Shown here: positions 3,461 to 13,356 of the stretch, piece by piece | How the letters are laid out: every line of letters begins with the position of its first letter | Numbering within the stretch: position 1 is the first letter of the stretch | Assembly: GCA_017626145.1 (NCBI GenBank) | Contig: JAGAJK010000078.1 | Span: 1 to 47,180, forward strand | DNA from: Clostridia bacterium | Lineage (GTDB): Bacteria; Bacillota; Clostridia; RGIG6154 | Direction of reading: 5' to 3' | Length of the DNA stretch: 47,180 bases | Position numbers and translations under genes: made by a program | Notes under the pieces: generated by a model | The model's input: the letters and a program-made list of their open reading frames with translations, nothing else | The model's database searches: none | Told to the model about the DNA's origin: nothing

Positions 3461-4717
3461 TTAATTATTTAAATTGTTTTCCGAACTTTCTGCTTTCACC
3501 TCAAGCTGAGGAACAGAAGGCTTTTTTATATTGGTGCTTGCTATTTTTTTATATACATATTTACGTGCAAGACAGTATAAAACAGAGCAGGTAGGAACAC
3601 TGAAAAGCATACCCACAACACCTGAAATATTACCACCTACAGTAACCGCAGCAAGAACCCATATTCCCGGCAGACCTACTGATTTACCTACAACTCTCGG
3701 ATAAATAAGATTATTTTCAAGCTGTTGAAGAATAAGCAGGAAAATGGTAAACCACAATGCATCAATGGGATTTATAAGAAGAATCAGAAATGCACCTATA
3801 ACGTTACCTACAAACGCACCGAACACGGGAATAAGTGCGGTAAAGCCTACAAGCACCGAAATAACCGATGCATACGGGAAGCCGAAAATAAGCATTCCTA
3901 TAAAGCATAAAACACCAAGTATAACCGCTTCGGTAAGCTGACCTGTTACAAAATTTGTAAATGTAACACTTGTAAGACCTATAAAGTCAATTATTTTATC
4001 AGTCTTTTTCTGAGGCATAATGGCATACATAACCATTCTTGCCTGCCTGCACAGCTTTTCCTTCTGAGCAAGCAGATACATCGAAAAGCCTATTGCGATG
4101 GCAAGATCCATAATAACCCCGAATATCGAATTTGTTATACTTACGGTTTTGTCTATAACGTTGTTACCGTATACTCTTACAAACTCGTTTATAATATCCC
4201 CGATTTTATCGTAATCGAACTGAATTTCAGGAATAATTATATTGTAATTTTCAAAGAAATGAACAACTCCGTTCCACCAGTTTTCCAGATTCTGAATGTA
4301 GTACGGCATCATATTTATGAAATTATAGCCTGTCTTGATAAATTCAGGAACAAGCATAAAAATTACCATAAACACTATTCCTAAAAAGAACAAAATACTG
4401 AATATAAGACACACCGGTCTTTTAAGCTTTGATTTAAGCTTGCCTTTGCTTTTCCTGAAAATTCTCTCCCATAGCTTCTCAACGGGAACGAGAATTGCAT
4501 TGATTACAAATGCAATGCAAAAGCCAACAATCAGCGGTGAAAACAGACCGAAAATCCATTTTATCGCATCGGCAACGATTGACATATGACGTATAAATGA
4601 ATAGAACAAAATGCCAAAGGTAACCAGTATAACCGCATACTTGAAGGTTTTGTTGTTTATAGGAATTTCAAGCTTTGAATCACGTTCATCTTCGGTGGTG
4701 AATTTATCATTTTTCAT
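3461..4717 (-). CDS. AI-2E family (PerM/YdiK-type) membrane protein
   Basis: The 418-residue integral membrane protein has about seven to eight hydrophobic segments. The family pattern includes AFVINAILVPVEKL near residue 75 and the C-terminal block LLILQQLENNLIYPRVVGKSVGLPGIWVLAAVTVGG. Family members have been linked to autoinducer-2 export and, in some bacteria, to Na+/H+ antiport. The substrate cannot be read here. Its ATG overlaps the last 11 bases of the CNNM/CorC gene, so the two are translationally linked and share the leader-controlled promoter upstream of that gene. A GGAGGCG site lies inside the upstream coding region. Confidence 0.88.
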   Translation of the reverse strand: MKNDKFTTEDERDSKLEIPINNKTFKYAVILVTFGILFYSFIRHMSIVADAIKWIFGLFSPLIVGFCIAFVINAILVPVEKLWERIFRKSKGKLKSKLKRPVCLIFSILFFLGIVFMVIFMLVPEFIKTGYNFINMMPYYIQNLENWWNGVVHFFENYNIIIPEIQFDYDKIGDIINEFVRVYGNNVIDKTVSITNSIFGVIMDLAIAIGFSMYLLAQKEKLCRQARMVMYAIMPQKKTDKIIDFIGLTSVTFTNFVTGQLTEAVILGVLCFIGMLIFGFPYASVISVLVGFTALIPVFGAFVGNVIGAFLILLINPIDALWFTIFLLILQQLENNLIYPRVVGKSVGLPGIWVLAAVTVGGNISGVVGMLFSVPTCSVLYCLARKYVYKKIASTNIKKPSVPQLEVKAESSENNLNN

Positions 4718-5975: not shown

Positions 5976-6027
5976 TAAAAATATAACTCCTTTTGTTAAT
6001 AATTAAATTTCAAACCTGCCTCTTTTA

Positions 6028-6153
6028 TCAGTTCAAATCCCTTTTAAGACACAAAAAGGCACACCTACACCATAAAAAATAGCGTAGATATGCCGTATAT
6101 TTTGAAATATAACTATAACAGTTGGCAGGGTCCGCGTCGCTGTTACTGTCCAT
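6028..6153 (-). CDS. 41-residue acidic leader peptide upstream of the CNNM gene (putative)
   Basis: An ATG frame of 41 codons begins MDSNSDADPA, with three Asp and one Pro in the first nine residues. It ends in a Cys/Tyr/Leu-rich and basic tail. GGAGG lies 12 bases before the ATG, longer than ideal; an in-frame CTG at 6159 would be at 6 bases. The ORF starts about 30 bases after the predicted transcription start. An intrinsic terminator is contained inside codons 20-32 and its T tract. The stop lies 52 bases before the CNNM gene. Acidic/Pro-rich leader starts are known in MgtL of enterobacteria, where they provoke ribosome drop-off at low Mg2+. The analogy is my inference. Confidence 0.6.
   Translation of the reverse strand: MDSNSDADPANCYSYISKYTAYLRYFLWCRCAFLCLKRDLN
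6053..6094 (-). terminator. Attenuator-like intrinsic terminator inside the leader ORF
   Basis: On the minus strand GGCATATCTACGC pairs with GTGTAGGTGTGCC (Watson-Crick plus several G-U pairs, about 13 bp). The AT-rich loop is followed directly by TTTTT. The hairpin falls within the coding region of the leader peptide, so active translation would disrupt it. Confidence 0.72.
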
Positions 6154-6189
6154 AATCAGTTAATTCCTCCATCTTTAATATTCTAATAC

Positions 6190-6218
6190 ATTGTAACACA
6201 ATACATTTGCAATGTCAA
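6190..6218 (-). promoter_or_regulatory. Sigma-A promoter for leader-CNNM-AI-2E operon, overlapping the aroA stop
   Basis: Minus strand: TTGACA (6218-6213), a 17-base spacer, TACAAT (6195-6190). The TGA of aroA is part of the -35 box. The predicted start near 6183 gives a leader of about 205 bases. Confidence 0.82.
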
Positions 6219-7408
6219 GATTTTTCTATAATAACACCTAATGAAGCTATTTTTTCAAAAAAGTCAGGATAGCTTTTTGCCACCGCTTCCGCTCCTTCAA
6301 TTTTACCGCCGCACAGGGTAAATAAAAGTGCCATTGACATTACGATTCGGTGGTCGTTATGACCGTTTGCAACCTTATTTACAAGTGGTTTAAATGGGAA
6401 AACCTCTATGCTGTTTTCGAAAACATTTACCTTTCCGCCCACATTTTCCAATTCCTGCTTCATAACCTCGCCACGGTCACTTTCTTTAATTTTAAGACGT
6501 CTTGTTCCCACAAAGGTTGCACCCTTGTTCATTGCCGCAACCACCATTAAAACAGGTACTAAATCGGGACAATCCGAAACGTCAAAGGTTTCGTTTCTTT
6601 CTTTCATCACATCAATTATTTCTTTATACACTCTGTCACCCTGCAAAGTGTTTTCGTTTATCCCCTTAACCGTTACACTACCGCCTAATGCATTAAAGGC
6701 ATATAAAAATGCCGCATTTGACATATCGCCCTCAACTGCCTTTTTTATCGGCCTGTAGCTTTGATTTCCTTTAATATAGAAATTATTGCCCTCTTTTTTT
6801 ATGCTTATACCGCTGTCAAGAAGTGCCTGCAGGGTCAAATCAACATAAGATGCACTCTCAAACGGAGGTAAAATTTTAATTACACTGTCACCGTCACAAA
6901 GAGGAAGTGCAAATAAAAGTCCCGTTATAAACTGACTGCTTACATCTCCCTGCAGTACATATTCTCCCGCTTTTAATTTTCCTTTAACGGTAAGGTAATC
7001 CTCGCCTTTTTTAAATAAAAAGCCGTGCTTTTTGCATATTTCCTCGTAAATTCCCAAAGGTCTTTCAAAAAGGCGTTTTGCACCTCTGAAAGTAACTTTT
7101 TTATCAAGAAGCAAGGCAATGGGAACAAAAAATCTTAAGGTGCTTCCGCTTTCATTACAGAAAAGCTCATCACAAACATTTAACGTTCTGCCATTAACCT
7201 TTGCTGTATCTCCCAAAAGCTCCACCTCTCCGCCAAGAGCCTTAATGCAGTTAATCGTTGCCTTTATATCCTCAGAAAATGCCAGAGAAGATATTTGACT
7301 TTCTTCATTTGCAAGAAAAGCACAAATCAAATTTCTGTGTGCAATGCTTTTTGACGGCGGTGCAAAAATTTCGCCTTGTGCCGTGCTTTTCTTTACTGTA
7401 ATATCCAA
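6215..7408 (-). CDS. aroA: 3-phosphoshikimate 1-carboxyvinyltransferase (EPSP synthase)
   Basis: EPSP synthase joins shikimate-3-phosphate and phosphoenolpyruvate in the shikimate pathway. The 397-residue protein has the N-terminal PPSKSIAHR motif (17-25) and the substrate motif CNESGSTLRFF. It also has GDVSSQFITGLLFALP, the central IKESDRG motif and the C-terminal NDHRIVMSMAL motif, all in the normal order. Length is slightly below the 420-430 of many homologues. The sequence does not settle whether it is a class I or II (glyphosate-sensitive or tolerant) enzyme. It is the last gene of the pheA-aroB-aroC-aroA run, about 20 bases after aroC. Confidence 0.96.
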   Translation of the reverse strand: MDITVKKSTAQGEIFAPPSKSIAHRNLICAFLANEESQISSLAFSEDIKATINCIKALGGEVELLGDTAKVNGRTLNVCDELFCNESGSTLRFFVPIALLLDKKVTFRGAKRLFERPLGIYEEICKKHGFLFKKGEDYLTVKGKLKAGEYVLQGDVSSQFITGLLFALPLCDGDSVIKILPPFESASYVDLTLQALLDSGISIKKEGNNFYIKGNQSYRPIKKAVEGDMSNAAFLYAFNALGGSVTVKGINENTLQGDRVYKEIIDVMKERNETFDVSDCPDLVPVLMVVAAMNKGATFVGTRRLKIKESDRGEVMKQELENVGGKVNVFENSIEVFPFKPLVNKVANGHNDHRIVMSMALLFTLCGGKIEGAEAVAKSYPDFFEKIASLGVIIEKS

Positions 7409-11488: not shown

Positions 11489-11787
11489 ACAGTTTAATAA
11501 ACAACAAATGCGTTGACCGGAAACAAGTAGTTTCGGTAATCTGTTTTAAGAGAGCTGTCGGATGGTGCAAGACAGAAACAGACCCAAAATGAATACATTC
11601 CGAGAGCAGTGTACCGAAAGGAAACAAGTAGGCTACAACGGGTGTGCCCGTTACAGCACTAAGGTAGTACCCATTTATGGAATACCTGAAGCGGTCAGGC
11701 TTGTAAAAGTCTGGCAATAGAGGTGGTACCGCGGGATATATTCTCGTCCTCTTGTAAAAAAATTTTTACATGAGGACGGGTTTTTTT
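11489..11787 (+). ncRNA. T-box riboswitch, probable tyrosine specifier (UAC)
   Basis: This is a tRNA-sensing leader of about 300 bases. Stem I carries AAGTAG (11525-11530), AGAGAGCTGTCGGATGGTGC and the CTGTC/GACAG distal stem. On its 3' side GAATACA precedes the TTCCG that pairs with CGGAA at the base, giving specifier UAC (11594-11596) for tRNA-Tyr. The T-box AGGTGGTACCGCGG is at 11721-11734. Its UGGU bulge would pair with an A discriminator base, as in bacterial tRNA-Tyr. A terminator hairpin with seven T lies at 11745-11787. Uncharged tRNA should stabilise antitermination and raise expression of the downstream symporter. Confidence 0.93.
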
Positions 11788-11790
11788 ATA

Positions 11791-11807
11791 CCTTTCCTCA
11801 GGAAAGG
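11791..11807 (+). promoter_or_regulatory. Hairpin covering the symporter ribosome binding site
   Basis: CCTTTCC TCA GGAAAGG forms a 7-bp stem with a 3-base loop. It lies four bases after the T-box terminator's T run and contains the AGGAAAGG Shine-Dalgarno sequence of the gene starting at 11818. Confidence 0.6.
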
Positions 11808-11817
11808 ACTTGGTAAA

Positions 11818-13356
11818 ATGTTTATTAAATTCTCAATGTTAGTAGTTTTCTTCGCTGTTATGATTGCCGTAGGCATTTATTGCAGAAAGAACGCAACAGA
11901 CGTTAACGGCTTCGTGCTCGGCGGAAGAAGTGTAGGTCCGTGGCTTACCGCTTTCGCATACGGCACAAGCTACTTTTCAGCAGTTATCTTCGTAGGTTAT
12001 GCAGGTCAGTTCGGCTGGAAGTTCGGTATCGCATCAACGTGGATTGGTATCGGAAACGCAATTATCGGCTCACTTCTTGCCTGGGTTATTTTAGGAAGAA
12101 GAACAAGACTTATGAGTCAGCACCTTAATTCGGCAACAATGCCTGAATTTTTCGGCAAAAGATTTAACAGCTCATCACTTAAAATCTTTGCATCACTTTT
12201 GGTGTTTGTATTCCTTATTCCTTATACAGCATCACTCTACAACGGTTTATCCCGTCTGTTTGAAATGGCTTTCCCAATGGTAAGCTACGATACATGTGTT
12301 ATAGTAATGGCAATTCTTACAGGTATTTATGTTATTGCCGGTGGATATATGGCAACTGCTATAAATGACTTTATTCAGGGCATTATAATGCTTATTGGTA
12401 TTGTTGCTGTTATTGCTTCTGTTTTAAACGGTCAGGGCGGTTTTATGGGAGCGTTAAAAGGTCTTAACGAGATTCCTTGTGAAGCAATGAACGGCGGTTT
12501 CGGCTCATTCTTCGGTCCCGACCCATTTAATCTTCTTTGCGTAGTTATTCTTACATCACTTGGTACCTGGGGTCTTCCTCAGATGGTACAGAAGTTCTAT
12601 GCTATCAAGAGTGAAAGTAACATCGCAAAAGGTACAATCATTTCAACATTCTTTGCTTTAATCGTTGCAGGCGGTTGCTACTTCCTCGGCGGCTTCGGCA
12701 GACTTTTCTCAGACAAGTTTACTCTTGTTAACGGTGTTCCTGACGGAAGCTATGATGCAATTATTCCAAAAATGCTTGAAAATCTTCCCGTTGTACTTAT
12801 CGGCATTGTAATCGTTCTTGTTTTATCAGCTTCAATGTCAACACTTTCATCACTTGTTTTAACATCAAGCTCAACACTTACTCTTGATATGATTAAAGGC
12901 CATATAATTAAAAATATGAGTGAAAAGAAACAGGTTCTTGTTATGAGAATATTAATAGTATTCTTCATTGTAATTTCAGCAATTATTGCAATTAACAAGG
13001 ATAAGCTCGGTTATATTGCAGATATGATGGGTATTTCCTGGGGTGCGTTGGCAGGTGCATTTTTAGCTCCGTTCCTCCTTGGACTTTACTGGAAAAAGGT
13101 TACAAAATCAGCTGTATGGGTTAACTTCATTTTCAGCTCGGTACTTATGATTGCAAATATGCTTGTAAGAGGTTCATTCCCACAAGTGTTACAGTCACCA
13201 ATTAACTGCGGTGCAATGGCGATGCTTGCAGGATTTATAATTGTTCCTGTCGTAAGCTTAATTACAAAGAAGCCTGACGATAAAAAGGTTGAAGAAATGT
13301 TCAGCTGTTACAATGCTGACATAACAGTTAAAGCTAAAAAATCATTAGGTGAATAA
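11818..13356 (+). CDS. Sodium:solute symporter (SSS family), probable aromatic amino acid uptake
   Basis: The 512-residue membrane protein has about 13 hydrophobic helices. Family features include GGRSVGPWLTAFAYGTSYFSAV after helix 1, GIYVIAGGYMATAINDFIQG in the middle and a later LSASMSTLSSLVLTSSSTLT sodium-site helix. Family members couple Na+ influx to uptake of amino acids, sugars or carboxylates. The upstream T-box with an apparent Tyr specifier and the downstream aryl-acid genes suggest tyrosine or another aromatic substrate, which is inference. The start at 11818 is chosen because the in-frame ATG at 11770 lies inside the terminator hairpin, and AGGAAAGG precedes 11818. Confidence 0.85.
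   Translation: MFIKFSMLVVFFAVMIAVGIYCRKNATDVNGFVLGGRSVGPWLTAFAYGTSYFSAVIFVGYAGQFGWKFGIASTWIGIGNAIIGSLLAWVILGRRTRLMSQHLNSATMPEFFGKRFNSSSLKIFASLLVFVFLIPYTASLYNGLSRLFEMAFPMVSYDTCVIVMAILTGIYVIAGGYMATAINDFIQGIIMLIGIVAVIASVLNGQGGFMGALKGLNEIPCEAMNGGFGSFFGPDPFNLLCVVILTSLGTWGLPQMVQKFYAIKSESNIAKGTIISTFFALIVAGGCYFLGGFGRLFSDKFTLVNGVPDGSYDAIIPKMLENLPVVLIGIVIVLVLSASMSTLSSLVLTSSSTLTLDMIKGHIIKNMSEKKQVLVMRILIVFFIVISAIIAINKDKLGYIADMMGISWGALAGAFLAPFLLGLYWKKVTKSAVWVNFIFSSVLMIANMLVRGSFPQVLQSPINCGAMAMLAGFIIVPVVSLITKKPDDKKVEEMFSCYNADITVKAKKSLGE

Follow-up and report, generated by a model that had tools for sequence, protein, structure and literature searches.

A conserved acidic leader ORF overlapping an intrinsic terminator upstream of CNNM genes in Clostridia: a candidate ribosome-operated, Mg2+-responsive attenuator

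The leader and the CNNM gene in the window

The window, i.e., the whole stretch of 47,180 nucleotides that was analyzed, carries on its minus strand a short leader ORF between aroA, the last gene of a pheA-aroB-aroC-aroA cluster, and a gene of the CNNM type (Table 1). The elements that the preliminary description had placed in this interval, namely a promoter, GGAGG, an ORF of 41 codons, a terminator in codons 20-32, and the CNNM start (ATG 5975) 52 nt past the ORF end, were all present as placed. The promoter (TTGACA-17-TACAAT, 6218-6190) matches the consensus at 11 of 12 positions and has an extended -10 TG; its -10 end lies 36 nt from the leader ATG, the family median being 38 nt. The terminator, which consists of 16 pairs followed by T5, spans nt 59-96 of the leader ORF, and the folding of the window leader exceeded that of shuffled sequences (z -3.5 and -3.7). 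As a control for chance, ATG ORFs of 12-70 aa preceded by a Shine-Dalgarno sequence were collected from the whole 47-kb window (n = 66), and the leader ORF alone among them reached a net acidity of at least 3 over residues 2-12. The window copy is also rich in Tyr, with five Tyr residues as well as Phe and Trp.

Table 1. Coordinates of the leader elements, the neighboring genes, and the leaders found upstream of P2-type ATPase genes
Feature	Position	Strand	Remark
aroA, 5' of the leader; final gene of pheA-aroB-aroC-aroA	6215..7408	-	
-35 hexamer TTGACA	6213..6218	-	overlaps the aroA stop codon
-10 hexamer TACAAT with TG extension	6190..6195	-	putative transcription start near 6183
Shine-Dalgarno GGAGG of the leader ORF	6166..6170	-	12 nt 5' of ATG 6153
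Leader ORF, 41 codons, MDSNSDADPANCYSYISKYTAYLRYFLWCRCAFLCLKRDLN	6028..6153	-	ATG 6153, end 6028
Candidate acidic sensor segment, leader codons 2-9, DSNSDADP	6127..6150	-	residue 2 acidic in 61/61 leaders
Intrinsic terminator hairpin	6058..6094	-	within leader ORF codons 20-32
Terminator U-tract TTTTT	6053..6057	-	from sequence
Shine-Dalgarno GGAG of the CNNM gene	5987..5990	-	from sequence
CNNM (DUF21)-CBS-CBS-CorC_HlyC gene, 422 aa	4707..5975	-	Pfam domains, MtCorB alignment
Leader 5' of a P2-type ATPase gene (G242)	L257:196-360		
Leader 5' of a P2-type ATPase gene (G119)	L258:161-262		

The gene downstream of the leader had been described as a Mg-transport-type gene, and the analysis of its product was in line with this. 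The protein showed Pfam matches to PF01595 (6e-52), PF00571, and PF03471, and aligned at 5e-49 with the structure 7m1t of MtCorB. MtCorB is an archaeal Mg2+ transporter of solved structure, whose Mg2+ site comprises S21, S25, S71 (Asn in bacteria), G110, and E111 (PMC8242095); S15, S19, N65, G105, and E106 of the window protein align with these Mg2+-coordinating positions. The protein has the features of MpfA and CorB, i.e., a CNNM domain with a CBS pair and a CorC_HlyC domain together with the coordinating residues, and Mg2+ export is predicted. The gene probably encodes a Mg2+ exporter of the MpfA/CorB type. Bacterial relatives can also serve otherwise, as in the case of PaeA and polyamines.

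Further genes of the window were noted in passing. The CNNM gene overlaps at its end with an AI-2E-family permease-like gene (3461-4717, minus strand), and at another locus (L103), an AI-2E-permease-like frame ends directly upstream of CNNM, which suggests a conserved partnership. A T-box leader (11504-11754, plus strand; 138.7 bits) lies directly 5' of a sodium:solute symporter-like ORF (11770-13356), followed by AMP-dependent ligase-like and indolepyruvate:ferredoxin oxidoreductase-like ORFs.

Conservation of the leader among Clostridia

When a few genomes of the same family were searched with the leader DNA, no significant match was obtained outside the window, because the leader sequence diverges fast; the CNNM protein was therefore used as the search anchor. 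This search covered 84,980 species genomes, and the best 80 loci were taken, of which 79 were usable (L099 came without upstream sequence). The conserved acidic ORFs that the preliminary description had proposed to look for 5' of CNNM genes were found in 68 of these 79 loci. The upstream ORFs (uORFs) follow the pattern MD-S/G/A-D-S-S-D/E-D..., and typical leader peptides begin MDSDSSDDYDNCY..., MDSSDSSDDNGDTNN..., MDADSSEDDTANYNN..., and MDSDDGDYPANTERY... A clean terminator accompanied 59 of the 68, in addition to the window leader, while L032, L069, L071, L073, L074, L076, L078, L087, and L108 had an acidic uORF whose hairpin was weaker, longer, or unscored or whose start codon was GTG. L069 and L108 come from Pseudoflavonifractor or Gemmiger isolates, which are cultured carriers of the leader. 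An acid/Pro uORF (MDEPPR...) was present in 4 of the 79 loci (L090, L094, L095, and L107), and six had no uORF of either kind. At L038 (1110-1196), the promoter and terminator were retained and the uORF was nearly neutral (MGSSCSPDNSASIPIPLHAACLFPEIGV); such a locus offers a natural example in which loss of the sensor can be examined. Among CNNM genes sampled from 255 Clostridia genomes, the closest orthologues, with identities of 57% or more, carried the leader, and most homologues below approximately 54% identity were without it. The leader layout is conserved in dozens of gut Clostridia, far beyond chance.

The leader set comprised 61 leaders in the reading-frame test, 60 in later tests, and 50 in alignment A1. 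Read in frame 0, codons 2-11 of the 61 leaders encoded on average 3.64 acidic residues and 0.13 basic ones, compared to 0.13 acidic residues per 10 codons in each of the other two frames. The frame was open from the ATG to the hairpin in 57 of the 61, and the other frames in 30 and 5. Among similar pairs, synonymous changes made up 20.9% of the differing N-terminal codons, against 10.0% expected from random substitutions. An unconserved frame or non-synonymous drift in relatives had been named in the preliminary description as the result that would speak against the leader; the test was run, and the frame proved to be conserved. The emphasis that had been laid on Asp and Pro codons held for the acidic part. 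What was conserved was the density of Asp and Glu plus an Asp as the second codon; Pro was no such determinant, appearing now and then in the main type and distinguishing a separate minority type (MDEPPR, MEDPP).

These data also bear on amino-acid attenuation, in which starvation for Asp, Asn, Ser, or an aromatic amino acid would stall the leader ribosome, a reading to which the Tyr-rich window copy and its location beside pheA-aroB-aroC-aroA lend some appeal. However, Tyr was not conserved among the relatives, and a Tyr or aromatic attenuator beside the aro operon was rejected for this reason. The acidity was conserved with Glu substituting for Asp at several positions, and there was no antiterminator for a stalled ribosome to favor, so that amino-acid attenuation in general appears highly improbable.

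The acidic stretch showed a nucleotide bias as well. Its Ser codons were AGY in 123 cases and TCN in 8 (window and 60 relatives), compared to an AGY share of 28% in the CNNM genes and to 6 AGY versus 25 TCN between leader codon 12 and the hairpin. The codons of the stretch were RRY-biased, with purines at positions 1 and 2 and a pyrimidine at position 3, and Cys codons were unusually many. This AGY/RRY bias is left unexplained by the peptide-charge model. It suggests some constraint at the RNA level, as might be expected if an unrecognized metal riboswitch or protein-bound RNA governed the terminator and the ORF were secondary. However, no relevant Rfam match was found on the leader at gathering or permissive thresholds, the M-box (ykoK) riboswitch RF00380 gave no match on the leader and none in 13 leader-bearing genomes, and the terminator was the sole conserved structure in the leader alignment. 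We regard such an RNA-based control as very unlikely.

The hairpin itself was strongly conserved. In the covariation check that had been called for at the outset, compensatory changes were detected at 12 of the 12 pairs of the consensus hairpin, and none of 500 shuffles matched its score. Hairpin cells were paired in 91.4% of cases, versus 82% in shuffles and 27-56% when slid. The phase of the hairpin relative to the ORF was mixed (25, 14, and 22 leaders across the three phases), indicating that conservation of the hairpin does not stem from its coding for part of the peptide, and that peptide and hairpin are conserved separately. The hairpin begins at a median of 60 nt after the leader ATG, and no leader stop codon ends farther than 10 nt 5' of it (range -10 to +106, median +36). 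With this geometry, a ribosome finishing the ORF always reaches the hairpin and a ribosome halted at codons 2-9 does not. An antiterminator had not been visible in the window, and none was conserved in the relatives either; the 5' arm of the hairpin paired with upstream RNA no more than shuffled sequences did, and thus there was no sign of a classical antiterminator.

A near-consensus promoter was present at the equivalent place in 56 of 60 leaders, approximately 38 nt before the ATG, compared to 2.3% of shuffles. The spacing between the Shine-Dalgarno sequence and the ATG had a median of 12 nt in the 60 leaders and of 11 nt in the CNNM genes themselves; the 12-nt spacing of the window leader, which the preliminary description had counted against it, is therefore the family norm and no weak point. 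The position of the promoter bears on the possibility that the hairpin does no more than terminate the aro operon upstream, alongside a CNNM promoter and an incidental ORF. In the window, no other terminator is listed between aroA and CNNM, and the leader promoter overlaps the aroA end, as this explanation would have it. Against it, the location of the promoter 5' of the hairpin in 56 of 60 relatives indicates that the hairpin attenuates that promoter and is not merely an upstream-gene terminator. The sequence 5' of the promoter varies among the relatives, and the acidity and frame of the ORF are conserved. We disfavor this explanation and give it the least credence of those considered. In the window, the leader terminator would stop read-through transcripts of the aro cluster too.

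Variant designs and leaders upstream of ATPase genes

At several loci, the stop codon of the acidic uORF overlaps or abuts the CNNM start; L158, L161, and L170 belong to the sample from 255 genomes, and L135 and L076 came from other searches. Translational coupling appears to replace the terminator at four of these and to act in addition to it at L076. Elsewhere, the N-terminus of the CNNM protein is itself acidic or of the acid/Pro kind (MDSDSST at L137, MEDPPR at L083, and MDSDSIG at L084). Judging from their anatomy, the terminator, coupled, and fused designs would all make CNNM output dependent on ribosome passage through the acidic stretch.

TTG-initiated acid/Pro uORFs were found at L162 (LEDPPKR) and, with a terminator, at L164 (LDEPPLPCNN). 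Acid/Pro uORFs 5' of CNNM, including these two and L090, L094, L095, and L107, mostly occur without a terminator, and may be a second sensor type that is nearer to the EPDP of MgtL. MDEPPR was considered as the mark of a general second family and rejected, the exact pattern occurring only four times in 291 Clostridia genomes.

To examine specificity, a covariance model built from 50 leaders was used to scan 391 Clostridia genomes. Apart from the window itself, the 12 top matches (L117-L128; E ≤1.2e-7) were all located 5' of CNNM genes. The next match, in G119 (1.7e-7), was an acidic uORF with a terminator 5' of a P2-type ATPase gene, and a match in G242 (1.5e-5) was likewise an acidic uORF with a terminator 5' of such a gene (Table 1). 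At the G242 locus (L257), the stop codon of the uORF and the start codon of the ATPase gene overlap in the sequence TAATG. By sequence, the leader-bearing P2-type ATPases were nearest to Ca2+ ATPases, at scores below equivalog cut-offs. In G272 (L136/L285), a leader of the same type stands at a contig end and a close ATPase opens another contig; the leader probably lies 5' of the ATPase across the contig break. The leader was absent from the more distant P-type ATPases that were fetched, and the association with ATPases is therefore clade-limited. In G152, a CNNM/hemolysin paralogue that is more distantly related (L130) had MSDDDSDSSNLINLI plus a terminator. Matches weaker than approximately E 1e-4 were mostly ordinary terminators and were discarded as candidates. 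The leader may serve as a flag for cation exporters generally.

Proposed mechanism and relation to known leaders

The anatomy of an attenuator, comprising promoter, ORF, acidity, frame conservation, covarying terminator, position, and target gene, is firm. We consider it likely that the leader is a ribosome-operated, Mg2+-responsive transcription attenuator of a CNNM-type divalent-cation exporter gene. A strong promoter of the constitutive type would produce a leader RNA carrying the short ORF, the first 8-12 codons of which would yield an Asp-rich, base-poor nascent chain. The 3' half of the ORF overlaps the intrinsic terminator, or its stop codon abuts it. A ribosome that has moved past the acidic stretch would occupy the hairpin's 5' arm, so that RNA polymerase could read into CNNM. 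If the ribosome dropped off or stalled near codons 2-9, its leading edge would stay short of the hairpin, the terminator would form, and the exporter would be off. High cytoplasmic Mg2+ would allow full translation of the leader and turn the exporter on, and at low Mg2+ the acidic codons would make the ribosome stall or fall off, resulting in termination. The ribosome would have to arrive before the hairpin forms, which would require effective coupling of ribosome and polymerase.

The sign of this response, from translation through the leader to transcriptional readthrough, is the only one that fits the anatomy, because no antiterminator is conserved. The interpretation offered in the preliminary description is supported in part, its anatomy by conservation and its sign by the absence of an antiterminator and by the coupled and fused variants. 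An ON-when-translated logic would be the reverse of that of the enterobacterial importer leaders and would suit an exporter. Cytoplasmic Mg2+ is proposed as the most likely signal by analogy, because low Mg2+ promotes such ribosome destabilization in enterobacteria (MgtL). In our assessment, the attenuator is well supported, and Mg2+ sensing is held with moderate confidence.

The same attenuator might answer to another signal, such as general translation capacity, polyamines, or the status of an ABC-F/EF-P-type factor or of ribosomal protein bL31, so that the exporter would be on whenever ribosomes manage acidic chains. EttA (PMC11282234) and bL31 (PMC8092293) modulate acidic-chain destabilization in E. 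coli and Salmonella, and the same leader type occurs 5' of Ca2+-ATPase-like P2-type ATPases, which means that cations besides Mg2+ may be involved. However, the strongest association of the leader is with CNNM genes that have conserved Mg2+-site residues, and among the modulators of such destabilization, Mg2+ is the one best established. We regard a different signal as rather unlikely and retain the Mg2+-responsive attenuator as the preferred reading.

The closest precedents are enterobacterial. In E. coli, the EPDP of MgtL destabilizes the ribosome at limiting Mg2+, and EttA relieves this effect (PMC11282234). The Clostridia leader resembles MgtL, which is known from E. coli and Salmonella, in that its ORF is short and has acidic codons near the start, the second residue being acidic in every leader of the set, and in its location 5' of a Mg2+ transporter gene, which is mgtA for MgtL and a predicted CNNM exporter gene here. 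MgtL differs in that it precedes an importer gene, involves Rho-dependent termination on full leader translation, and turns the gene on by drop-off, whereas the Clostridia leader precedes an exporter-type gene, has an intrinsic terminator inside the ORF instead, would turn the gene off by drop-off, and encodes another peptide in another phylum. In the Salmonella leader MgtQ, Asp2 and Glu5 impede leader translation and control the Mg2+ transporter gene mgtB (PMC8092293). Asp2 is a near-invariant position in the Clostridia leaders also; however, MgtQ acts on translation via alternative stem-loops within the operon, serves an importer, and has no intrinsic terminator.

A destabilizing sequence has also been reported at the N-terminus of CorC, and expression of corC and mgpA rises at high Mg2+ (PMC12421838). 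CorC (YbeX) and YoaL-MgpA (YoaE) thus offer high-Mg2+-induced CorC-domain genes for which an acidic or destabilizing N-terminus, or a positive leader ORF, has been proposed as the sensor, and the regulatory mechanism of Salmonella corC/mgpA was called unclear in 2025 (PMC12421838). Unlike the leader described here, they have no terminator, and their protein architecture differs from that of the window CNNM. The putative destabilizing sequences of the Clostridia leaders are of the DSDSSDD type rather than D/E runs or EPDP.

With regard to output, the leader resembles the ribosome-mediated attenuators, i.e., those of the trp type and the uORF attenuators of antibiotic resistance in Firmicutes, in which a stalled ribosome favors an antiterminator. 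It shares with them its own promoter, a leader ORF, and an intrinsic terminator 5' of the gene, and differs in that the terminator alone is conserved, with no antiterminator for a stalled ribosome to favor. The leader is partly MgtL/MgtQ-like, in its sensor, and partly attenuator-like, in its output, and is a member of neither class as defined.

We see an even chance that these leaders represent a new class of cation-responsive attenuators in Clostridia. Ribosome destabilization by an acidic nascent chain would be the sensor of such a class, forming a portable module combined with terminators, translational coupling, or the exporter N-terminus, placed 5' of two unrelated exporter families (CNNM and P2-type ATPases), and always ON when translated. 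A search of the open-access literature yielded no description of such a leader, which is weak evidence, with subscription papers mostly outside its scope. If the proposal is true, it would give a direct answer to how excess Mg2+ is sensed and CNNM-type exporters are switched on in many gut Clostridia, and would imply effective ribosome-polymerase coupling in these bacteria. It would mean that a metal sensor based on nascent-chain ribosome destabilization arose beyond the enterobacteria with its logic reversed, and it would provide a compact signature for finding such sensors, possibly one that flags exporters without a known specificity.
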